A DNA stretch of 64,000 nucleotides from a bacterium (GTDB lineage Bacteria; Sumerlaeota; Sumerlaeia; SLMS01; JAHLLQ01): contig JAHLLQ010000007.1 in assembly GCA_020444065.1 (NCBI GenBank), forward strand, positions 1-64,000, read 5' to 3'. Below, piece after piece: positions 48,344 through 51,163 of the stretch. Position 1 is the stretch's first letter. Each line of letters begins with the position of its first letter. The translations under genes were made by a program, and so were the position numbers. A model generated the notes under the pieces. That model did not search any database, had not been told where the DNA came from, and saw only the letters and a list, made by a program, of their open reading frames with translations.

Positions 48344-49111
48344 CTACTTCCAGTTTCGACGCCAGAGTTTCTCGATGCCGAGGAGCGTGAGATTCGGCTC
48401 GACGGCGGCGAGGCGTGTCATGTCCGGGCCGAGCACGTTTGCCAGTCCGCCCGTCGCGATCAGTTTCAGTTCGTAGCCCAGTTCGCTTTCGATTCGACGC
48501 ACGCAGCCTTCCACGCCATCGATGGATCCAAAGAACAATCCGGCCAGCATCGACTGCACGGTGGTGCGGCCGACGGCTCCGCGTGGACGTTCGATGCGAA
48601 CGCGCGGAAGTTTCGATGTGCGAATGTGCAGCGCATCGGCGGTCGCTTCGAGTCCCGGCATAATGACGCCGCCGAGGTAATTGCCTTCGCGCGAGATGAC
48701 GTCGATCGTTGTGGCGGTTCCGAAATCAACGATGGCGAGGCCTGGACCATGCAGGTCGATGCCTGCGACGGCGTTGGCGAGTCGATCCATGCCGACTTCT
48801 TCGGGATGTTCGTATTCGTTCTTCAAGCCGAGGTCCATCTTGTTGCTGAGAACCACGCAATCGATGCCGATGACTTCTTTGACGCTACGCGCGAAGATCG
48901 TGTTGATGGACGGCACGACGGAGCAAAGTGCGGCGCCGCGCCATTCTTCGGCGGGAACCTGGTCGATTCCGCCGAGGAAGCGCAGCGTGATCTGCAGTTC
49001 ATCCGCGGTCTGATGTCGCGAAGTTGTGATGCGCCATTCGCGCAGGACTTTCGTGTCGTCCATCAGGCCGAGTGTTGTGTGCGTATTCCCAACGTCGATG
49101 GCGAGAAACAT
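48344..49111 (-). CDS. coaX: Type III pantothenate kinase
   Basis: 255 residues, normal length. It catalyses the first step of coenzyme A synthesis. Motifs: the phosphate-binding MFLAIDVGNTHTTLGL (1-16), GxDRxANAVAG in VGMDRLANAVAG (about 107-118), VDFGTATTIDVI (about 128-139) and GGVIMPGLEATADALHIRTSKLP. Type III enzymes are not inhibited by CoA and need a monovalent cation. It follows the M14/amidohydrolase gene by 12 bases on the same strand. Confidence 0.97.
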   Translation of the reverse strand: MFLAIDVGNTHTTLGLMDDTKVLREWRITTSRHQTADELQITLRFLGGIDQVPAEEWRGAALCSVVPSINTIFARSVKEVIGIDCVVLSNKMDLGLKNEYEHPEEVGMDRLANAVAGIDLHGPGLAIVDFGTATTIDVISREGNYLGGVIMPGLEATADALHIRTSKLPRVRIERPRGAVGRTTVQSMLAGLFFGSIDGVEGCVRRIESELGYELKLIATGGLANVLGPDMTRLAAVEPNLTLLGIEKLWRRNWK

Positions 49112-49123
49112 AGTCGGTACTTT

Positions 49124-51163
49124 CTAGTCGGAGGCCAGGTTCCACAAACCGACGCCAGGGCGTTCGAGGTTGCGTTCGCGATCGATGACGACCTGGCCAT
49201 TGAGAACGACGATCTCGGGTTGTATGCCCTCGATCGTTGTTGGATCGAGAATCGATTCGGGCAAGACAACGAAGTCCGCGCGGTAGCCAACCCGGATCAG
49301 GCCGACGCTCTTCATGCGCCAGGACTTTGCGCTCTGATAGGTCAGCAGACTGATGAGCGTGCTGATGGCGCCTTCATCTTCCGCGTGGGCGCGATCGATG
49401 GCGTGCGCCAGGAAATTCGGTGGCGGCGCGTAGTCACGTCGGCTGCCTGCGCGGCTGAGAACAAGCGGCTGGCCGTGCCAGTCGGGTTCGAGGATGTCGG
49501 TGCTGAAGAAGAGCTGGTTCGGGTGGCGAAGGAACTCGTCGGCGATGCGTTTCAGCATCAAAGGATCCACGGGGCGCGTTTTTTTCGCTTCTTCTTCGTT
49601 TAGCGAGTGGAAATTCAGATGGAATCGCGTCTGGCGATTCGACGCGGCGCCCTGGAAGATGATGTTCAGACCAATGAGGCGATCGGCTTCGTCCTCGGGC
49701 ACGGCGGAGTGATGCGCGGGGTGGTAGACGTGCGTGAAGTCGATGAGTTGTTGGGGCGTGATCGTGAGGCCGGAAACAACCATGCCGGAGAGATCGGTCA
49801 TGCCATGGCGGCGGATGATCTCTTCGAGGCTCTGGACGCGCTCCAGCGGAAGCATGTGAATGGGCGGCGGCGTGTTTGCCAATGTTGCAGCGAAGGCATC
49901 GCAATCGCGATCGTCCGCGAATGGGCCGAATGCGGCGGCCAGCGTCGTGACGCCGGCGCGCAGGTACGGCATGACGGCTTCGGGCTTGGGAATTTCGGTG
50001 CCGAAGTTCAACGCCGGCGCGAGTCCAACGATGCCCGGCAGAACAACCTTGCCATTGATCTGGCGACGTGACTTCGCGAGACGATCCTGGAGATCGCCGA
50101 CGCCTTCGAAGGCCCCGATGCTGAGTTTCGAATCTTCAACGCGGCGCGTGCGGCGCTCCAGATTCACGGCGATGTCGCCGTCGAACATGTTGAGCGCGCC
50201 GCCTTCGAACACGCGGGCGCCTTCGTAGATTTCATCGGCGAAGGCTTTGCCACTGTCGAACGGAAGGCGGTCGTATTCCTTGCCGCTTGGTTTTGCGTCT
50301 TCGCCGTTTGCGATCGCGTGCAGTCCGCGGATCAGCGACATCGCGAAGAGGCGAATGACAAACTCATCGCCGCCCTTTTCGGGGAACCAGCCGCCGGACT
50401 CGACCAGGATCGTCGACACTCCCCAGCGCATCATCGAATCGCCGAACGCGGTGTGCATGTAGTCGGCGGTGTAGCGCGCCAGGTTTCTCGGAGCGCGCGT
50501 GCGTGCGGCTTCCGCCATCAGGCCAATGATGTGTTTGCCCTTCAGGCGCACTTCGTTGTCGGTGTCGCCGGGTTCGAATGGGCCGGCCTGGAAGGCCAAC
50601 GCGACGAGGTCCTTATTGCCCGTCGACTTGCGGGCGCTCATGTCGTGCAGGTTAAAGGCGTACTCCGGCTGGAAGTCGTCCTTCAACGCGATGAGGGCCT
50701 TGGATTCGGGGGTGGTTTGCGCAACGGCGTCGCGATTCAAATCGATGCCCTGTGCGTTTTGGCGCGTGAAGCGGTAGACCCCGTCGGGGTTCACCATCGG
50801 GAAGATACAGAAAGAGATCTTGTCGAGCAGCAGCTTGAAGAGCGGCTCTTCGTGGCGCGTGATCAGGTTGTAGAGGAAGAGGCAGAGAGCGGCGGTGCAG
50901 TCCGGCTCGTCGCCGTGCTGGCGCGCCCAGATCATGACCCGGCGTTCCCCGCGACCAAAACGCATCGAGACGAGTTGGCGGCCTTCGATGGATGTGCCGG
51001 CCTGTTTGAGGTTCAGGTCGAACGGCGACTCCTTGACGAGTCGATGCAGGAATTTCTCCTGCTCCTCGTGGCGGAATCGGAACCAGTCGCCGGACCATGC
51101 GGCGGCGAGATCGAGGCTCTCCCAGAGGGCGTCTGGAGAGAATACGGAAGCGGTATCAGGCAT
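49124..51163 (-). CDS. M14 zinc carboxypeptidase fused to a degenerate amidohydrolase-like domain
   Basis: About 679 residues from the ATG at 51163 (MPDTASVFSP); the frame is open to 51319. The M14 peptidase domain (about 25-290) has the zinc set H83/E86 (RQHGDEP), the NPDGV and DLNRD substrate motifs, H173 (NLHDMS) and the catalytic glutamate E255 (VESGGW). No signal peptide, so it is cytoplasmic. Residues 300-679 look like an amidohydrolase: an EGARVFEGG start, VVLPGIVGLAP where PGxIDxHxH is normal, and an ADFVVLPE...VVLNGQVV end. The metal HxH is absent, so this half is probably inactive or regulatory. Confidence 0.82.
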   Translation of the reverse strand: MPDTASVFSPDALWESLDLAAAWSGDWFRFRHEEQEKFLHRLVKESPFDLNLKQAGTSIEGRQLVSMRFGRGERRVMIWARQHGDEPDCTAALCLFLYNLITRHEEPLFKLLLDKISFCIFPMVNPDGVYRFTRQNAQGIDLNRDAVAQTTPESKALIALKDDFQPEYAFNLHDMSARKSTGNKDLVALAFQAGPFEPGDTDNEVRLKGKHIIGLMAEAARTRAPRNLARYTADYMHTAFGDSMMRWGVSTILVESGGWFPEKGGDEFVIRLFAMSLIRGLHAIANGEDAKPSGKEYDRLPFDSGKAFADEIYEGARVFEGGALNMFDGDIAVNLERRTRRVEDSKLSIGAFEGVGDLQDRLAKSRRQINGKVVLPGIVGLAPALNFGTEIPKPEAVMPYLRAGVTTLAAAFGPFADDRDCDAFAATLANTPPPIHMLPLERVQSLEEIIRRHGMTDLSGMVVSGLTITPQQLIDFTHVYHPAHHSAVPEDEADRLIGLNIIFQGAASNRQTRFHLNFHSLNEEEAKKTRPVDPLMLKRIADEFLRHPNQLFFSTDILEPDWHGQPLVLSRAGSRRDYAPPPNFLAHAIDRAHAEDEGAISTLISLLTYQSAKSWRMKSVGLIRVGYRADFVVLPESILDPTTIEGIQPEIVVLNGQVVIDRERNLERPGVGLWNLASD

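Follow-up and report, generated by a model that had tools for sequence, protein, structure and literature searches.

The window, a stretch of 64,000 nucleotides from a Candidatus Sumerlaeota genome, carries on its minus strand a gene for a two-domain polypeptide, in which an M14 zinc carboxypeptidase domain whose active site is complete precedes an amidohydrolase-fold domain with no recognised site of its own. Conservation is given below over a fusion family of 116 rows (113 different M14 sequences, at least eight phyla), which were kept after removal of known duplicate loci and of rows with fewer than 190 M14-domain residues, and among which three pairs are still identical over that domain.

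49124..51163, minus strand: fusion gene of an M14 peptidase and a putative pseudo-amidohydrolase, 679 aa, stop codon included (ATG start, no internal stop)
50279..51106, minus strand: M14 zinc carboxypeptidase domain, residues ~20-295 (Pfam PF00246, AlphaFold2 model, fold match)
50906..50917, minus strand: H83 and E86, HxxE zinc ligands (each in 116 of 116 rows)
50732..50734, minus strand: R144 of the NRD motif (116 of 116 rows)
50645..50647, minus strand: H173, third zinc ligand (115 of 116 rows)
50399..50401, minus strand: E255, catalytic glutamate (116 of 116 rows)
50036..50257, minus strand: first part of the beta-sandwich subdomain, residues 303-376, with the GDL motif at 356-358 (conserved residues; aligns to the D-aminoacylase N-terminus)
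49319..50035, minus strand: compacted barrel without a recognisable metal site, residues ~377-615 (DSSP of the models; VIA Z of ~24 to D-aminoacylase and PpOngB)
49127..49318, minus strand: last part of the beta-sandwich subdomain, residues ~616-679, G..ADFVV...NG (Amidohydro_3 match, 591-660; second stretch aligned to D-aminoacylase)
48344..49111, minus strand: type III pantothenate kinase CoaX, 12 bases downstream of the fusion gene (Pfam Pan_kinase, 1.8e-60)

The first-pass annotation of this DNA had read the gene as a zinc peptidase fused to an amidohydrolase-fold half, and the single open reading frame bears this out. Pfam Peptidase_M14 matches residues 36-145 with 65.9 bits against a cut-off of 21.6 (6e-18), and Amidohydro_3 scores 31.8 bits against 29.7, in a match confined to residues 591-660. 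An M14 domain and an amidohydrolase-type tail also share one reading frame in 10 other genomes of the phylum Sumerlaeota, which rules out an assembly accident. One of these rows (L007), located close to the end of a contig, is missing its N-terminal part, the barrels of three (L008, L010, L011) are shortened, and fragments from two further genomes (G002 and G005) were left out. No relative was seen in which the fusion is split into two genes; three Bacteroidetes loci (L042:4664-5929, also L045 and L078) carry a different, stand-alone amidohydrolase gene with an intact HIH, which overlaps or abuts the start of an M14 gene that keeps its own tail.

Structure prediction and comparison with the PDB back both folds. 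An AlphaFold2 model of the whole protein, based on 46 aligned family rows, reached a pLDDT of 93.7 and a pTM of 0.90, the latter suggesting that the two halves are held in a fixed arrangement. Since fold searches with this model returned M14 chains in all 50 matches listed, the second half was also folded separately, which gave a pLDDT of 90.4 and a confidently folded barrel. No signal peptide was seen by eye at the N-terminus of the window protein, MPDTASVFSPDALWESLD, and the cytoplasmic location proposed in the first-pass annotation would fit this protein and the members of its order. That location does not extend to the whole family: hydrophobic, signal-like N-termini occur in the Sumerlaeota forms L009, L010 and L011 and in relatives elsewhere, so the compartment is, judging from these termini, not a family trait.

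The M14 peptidase half

All catalytic residues were said to be kept in the M14 half, and the five listed above are indeed present and found in 115 to 116 of the 116 rows. R144 presumably holds the C-terminal carboxylate of the substrate, as its counterpart does in carboxypeptidase A. A single row (L151) has Asn in place of the His that provides the third zinc ligand. The closest solved chain to the M14 model (residues 20-290) is 7eqx_C, with a Z of 28.1 over 249 aligned residues and an rmsd of 2.5. Foldseek alignments to 1uwy, 2nsm and 1qmu extend beyond the M14 domain, yet with an rmsd above 20. Among NCBIfam models, that of MpaA (NF007897) is the commonest match in the family (39 of 46 rows at E<=0.01); the window protein scores 27 bits, far under the equivalog cut-off of 157, and does not qualify as an MpaA equivalog. 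On the strength of the conserved site and the fold, the first half is predicted to be a working M14 metallocarboxypeptidase.

The amidohydrolase-derived half

The second half combines the beta-sandwich and the (beta/alpha) barrel that characterise the amidohydrolase superfamily. Its top structural match is PpOngB (9kb4; Z 24.5, 290 aligned, rmsd 4.1, model residues 5-377); D-aminoacylase (1rjq, Z 24.3, 298 aligned; 1m7j, Z 24.1) and N-acyl-D-glutamate deacylase (3gip, Z 23.0) score close to it, and the matches extend over the entire model. At the sequence level, a profile of 21 rows finds its best PDB match in D-aminoacylase 1m7j (E 1.7e-25), in an alignment that omits about 200 barrel residues. 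The barrel comprises about 240 residues, versus about 350 in PpOngB (63-415, as given in an excerpt of PMC12017989). The second-half positions conserved in 90% or more of the 46 rows of alignment A3 (D310, D330, G356 and D357) belong to the sandwich, and a GD-type motif, sought with a permissive pattern, occurs in 112 of the 116 tails. A generic amidohydrolase origin was considered and rejected, as the D-aminoacylase group ranks first among amidohydrolases by both sequence and VIA Z; the Foldseek E-value order mixes D-aminoacylase with other amidohydrolases (9kb1 first, 1m7j seventh). Architecture, together with kinship in sequence and modelled structure, thus points to a captured D-aminoacylase-type domain.

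The first-pass annotation had declared this half dead for want of the HxH motif. Its verdict stands, in that no catalytic site was recognised, and its reasoning is incomplete: in subtype V enzymes, the D-aminoacylase type, the metal sits on Cys/His/His and the catalytic residue is Asp (PMC12017989, same excerpt), so that an absent HxH is by itself no proof of inactivity. In the window protein, the conserved PG (376-377) is followed by IVGLAPALN, and no HxH is present. Only two of the 116 rows (L062 and L063) have an HxH near PG, in both cases at the end of a short Luteimonas tail with no room for a barrel. The pattern G[NQDSAT]C[GA] was found in none of the 116 family tails, and SD[SG]G-like patterns only in rows L006 and L060. 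An active member of the fusion family was sought by motif among the 116 rows and none was recognised; the searches were seeded with the family's own profile, which a more distant active fusion could escape.

The four key residues were followed by aligning nine Sumerlaeota second halves (A6) with four stand-alone D-aminoacylase-type proteins (A7), three of them from Sumerlaeota genomes (L181, L182 and L183, with GNCG, SHMR, ISH and SDSG) and one, without the Cys, from a Calditrichota genome (L178). Nine loci had been fetched for A7, five of which have a protein with P(G/R).(I/V/L)D.H.H; L180, which shows no GNCG, was omitted. The two alignments are joined by hhalign with a probability of 99.4 over 357 columns. 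GNCG is placed opposite an AFGPF stretch, gaps stand at both His positions, and R571 takes the place of the Asp of SDSG, or A572 in the alignment to 1m7j. None of the four D-aminoacylase residues is therefore retained in the profile alignment, and a search of the domain alignments for lost metal ligands, as the first-pass annotation had recommended, found no complete metal site in the second half. No His or Cys is invariant across the nine Sumerlaeota second halves. Alignment is poor in the stretch that contains both His positions, with H481 of VYHPAHH close to one of the gaps and H515 and H519 located on a barrel strand; the second half may contain a displaced His. In L002, L003, L007 and L009, a Cys stands about three residues ahead of the position of the metal Cys, where the window protein has Ala. 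Loss of the catalytic site is, on these alignments, well supported, though short of proof.

A stand-alone D-aminoacylase was also sought with A7 in the genome of the window, and the three partial matches obtained (E<=1e-5) are all of other types. Judged by reading, two of them carry HVH, one resembling a hydantoinase and the other a dihydroorotase. The third (L187:3565-5010, contig C8) is dihydroorotase-like, lacks HxH after PG and adjoins an AccA-like gene.

Spread of the family and length of the tail

By profile search, 14 of 40 genomes of the phylum Sumerlaeota contain members (E<=1e-20). At E<=1e-40, members were found in 92 of 296 sampled Bacteroidota genomes (the phylum of the Cyclobacteriaceae locus L048), in 32 of 199 Acidobacteriota genomes (that of the Pyrinomonadaceae locus L043), in 4 of 40 genomes from the phylum of the Calditrichia locus L032 and in 3 of 149 from that of the Marinimicrobia locus L033. 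Further family loci belong to Lysobacteraceae, Alteromonadaceae, Gemmatimonadota and Ignavibacteria. A triple fusion of GHL10, M14 and an amidohydrolase-derived tail occurs in Calditrichia and Marinimicrobia (L032:4180-7602, L033:4297-7566 and L036:2371-5616).

The tail, counted as the residues after position 300, is graded in length. It measures 235-384 residues in ten Sumerlaeota rows and 248-283 in nine others, eight from Marinimicrobia, Calditrichia, KSB1, Deferribacteres or Bacteroidetes and one from the phylum of the Pyrinomonadaceae locus. Tails of 150-200 residues (47 rows) and of 73-136 residues (50 rows) make up the remainder, such that 97 of the 116 tails do not exceed 200 residues and are too short for a full barrel. 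In the 101-residue tail of Flavobacterium L069, the first strands run almost directly into the apparent last motif (KADFFL...NG), and the shortest tails seem, from their sequences, to keep parts of the beta-sandwich only. A profile of 20 short tails (A8), drawn from these 97 rows, ranks PpOngB and D-aminoacylase first, albeit weakly (E 0.013-0.024); its eight PDB matches at E<=1 are all amidohydrolases, and hhalign aligns it to A7 with a probability of 94.8.

When the M14 domains are arranged in a tree, the rows from Sumerlaeota form one clade (SH-aLRT 99) beside the middle-sized forms, and tail size classes require 12 changes versus a mean of 52.8 after shuffling, near-copies included. Rooting on two distant M14 proteins places the short forms near the root, contrary to a change from long to short; the outgroup branches carry about 5 changes per column, and we do not trust this root. 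What speaks for the direction from long to short is instead that the long form is homologous to D-aminoacylases of full length.

Neighbours, possible roles and known systems

CoaX lies directly downstream of the fusion gene, on the same strand, in seven of the eight loci examined from the window's order (the window, L021, L022, L023, L026, L027 and L028), a count that excludes the fragments in G002 and G005; the CoaX proteins of L021-L023 are divergent, with 26-32% identity to that of the window. Among the window neighbours from ~38 to 62 kb, read by eye, no peptidoglycan gene was seen. Elsewhere such genes recur, as raw counts within 6 kb that include near-copy loci (L066/L068 and L062/L063). 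MurQ and NamZ occur in six of seven Alteromonadales-type loci, some of which also have a GH3 enzyme, an FAD-linked dehydrogenase, an RpiR regulator or alanine racemase, and S66 LdcA, an LD-carboxypeptidase, is encoded on the opposite strand in eight of ten Lysobacteraceae loci. The Gemmatimonadota locus L049 has NamZ and a GH3-like protein. A gene for an S13 D-Ala-D-Ala carboxypeptidase immediately precedes the M14 gene, in the same orientation, in the signal-bearing Sumerlaeota loci L029 and L030, and immediately follows it in Lentimicrobium L044. In L026 an S13 gene is found on the opposite strand at a distance of about 4 kb, and in L047 a partial one about 1.8 kb downstream; in L031, the gene after the family member is of the beta-lactamase family. 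In L032, L033 and L036, the domain fused in front of M14 is GHL10, the group to which we take Escherichia coli DigH to belong. DigH hydrolyses denuded peptidoglycan glycans (PMC12288456).

Other neighbours recur by lineage. Marine gammaproteobacterial clusters for N-acetylmuramate salvage that include a family member (L051, L053, L065, L066, L068 and L071) contain MurQ and NamZ and, variously, RpiR, GH3, an SSF transporter, alanine racemase or an FAD-linked dehydrogenase. One protein family is common to all eight Flavobacteriaceae loci (L060, L067, L069, L070, L073, L074, L076 and L077); its copy in L060, just downstream of the M14 gene, is of the Lrp/AsnC type by Pfam. An NhaC-type Na+/H+ antiporter is encoded near the M14 gene in Sumerlaeota (L025:8075-9484) and in Alteromonadaceae (L051:10430-11803 and L066).

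We hold, with moderate confidence, that the window protein is a working M14 metallocarboxypeptidase whose captured, D-aminoacylase-type C-terminal half has lost deacylase catalysis. Across phyla, conservation lies, as far as the sequences tell, in the beta-sandwich and not in the former catalytic barrel. The sandwich would be packed against the peptidase, as a module that supports its structure and presents substrate, much like the unrelated transthyretin-like sandwich of carboxypeptidases D, M and N. Most likely, the peptidase depends on the sandwich to fold or to be presented with its substrate, and puts up with variation in the barrel; where Sumerlaeota retain the barrel, it could serve as a scaffold that is not strictly needed or offer a new surface for ligands. 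Peptidoglycan neighbours and fusions outside the window's order make a cell-wall peptide the best guess for the substrate. More tentatively, the M14 domain would act much as MpaA does in cell-wall recycling, cleaving a stem peptide of peptidoglycan that bears a free carboxylate. A role in peptidoglycan metabolism is slightly favoured for the family and is rated lower for the window protein itself.

Other readings of the protein are less probable. It is unlikely, for instance, that the barrel keeps a non-metal function of its own, binding a sugar, peptide or nucleotide around GPF 413-415, E441 and H453. The confident fold of the barrel and the invariance of G413, P414, F415, E441, H453 and G454 in the seven rows of A2, which represent the window's order, would agree with such a function, but L008, from the window's own family, has lost this stretch, and L009-L011 have replaced H453, with E441 kept as Glu in L010 and L011 and changed to Asp in L009. 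A binding barrel would moreover have no room in the 97 short tails, and it fits poorly with second halves that are at most 33% identical between relatives and the window protein, versus 44% for the whole protein. Fast divergence, along with tail lengths graded by lineage, is what a passive vestige, lost by drift and neutral for the peptidase, would leave behind; drift would not, however, keep the four sandwich residues and the GD-type motif so widely, and we regard this possibility as quite improbable. About equally improbable is an activity in coenzyme A or pantothenate metabolism, such as cleavage of the amide of a pantothenate derivative with a free carboxylate. M14-like enzymes can act on N-acyl amino acids, and the recurrent position of CoaX would suit a shared pathway; the pair was nevertheless not found in L024, in the signal-bearing L025, L029 and L030, or in the 48 named loci outside Sumerlaeota, and in the latter peptidoglycan neighbours recur.

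If the preferred reading of a live peptidase with a silenced deacylase half is extended to the family, a tentative scenario, to which we give somewhat less than even weight, can be outlined. A multi-phylum family of cell-wall-recycling peptidases would have captured a D-aminoacylase, silenced it and cut out its barrel stepwise. In many Bacteroidota, Acidobacteriota, Gemmatimonadota and Lysobacteraceae, only the sandwich would remain, as an accessory domain that the peptidase cannot do without, and Sumerlaeota would represent the earliest surviving stage. A dead enzyme domain fused to a live enzyme is, as a rule, known in one state only. Here, one family presents apparently the same dead domain at several sizes beside a conserved peptidase, a natural truncation series that allows comparison of what the dead domain is kept for. 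A widespread and poorly named M14 family is also flagged as a possible player in cell-wall recycling.

With M14 metallocarboxypeptidases (carboxypeptidases A, B and T; bacterial 4b6z and 3l2n), the window protein shares the fold, the zinc site, the NR motif and the catalytic Glu; the amidohydrolase-derived C-terminal domain is its own. In carboxypeptidases M, N and D (M14B), the M14 domain is followed by a transthyretin-like beta-sandwich unrelated to amidohydrolases. Foldseek matches the model of the window protein to 1uwy, 2nsm, 1qmu and 3mn8 from this group, and the sequence of the tail points to an amidohydrolase origin. The murein tripeptide amidase MpaA, an M14 enzyme and the commonest named family match, possibly acts on the same kind of substrate; it cuts gamma-D-Glu-mDAP in the murein tripeptide (PMC9928106, excerpt), and its NCBIfam model of 237 positions leaves no room for a second domain, unlike the window protein. 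D-aminoacylase, N-acyl-D-glutamate deacylase and PpOngB, all of subtype V, share the sandwich and barrel fold with the second half and are its best match in both sequence and structure, but their Cys, His, His and Asp are not retained in the alignments and the barrel of the window protein is smaller.

Both parts of the protein are of known kinds. The open-access literature searched yielded no description of such a fusion of M14 with a dead D-aminoacylase, of its spread or of the gradation in its tail, and PMC8092238, a paper on Sumerlaeota, uses neither 'amidohydrolase' nor 'carboxypeptidase' in its main text. That a partner enzyme can depend on a dead chain of the amidohydrolase fold has a precedent in the aspartate transcarbamoylase (ATCase) of Pseudomonas aeruginosa, for whose activity an inactive dihydroorotase homologue is required, according to an excerpt of PMC7053772. 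That pseudo-dihydroorotase differs from the second half described here in being a separate, dihydroorotase-like chain whose partner is a transcarbamoylase.
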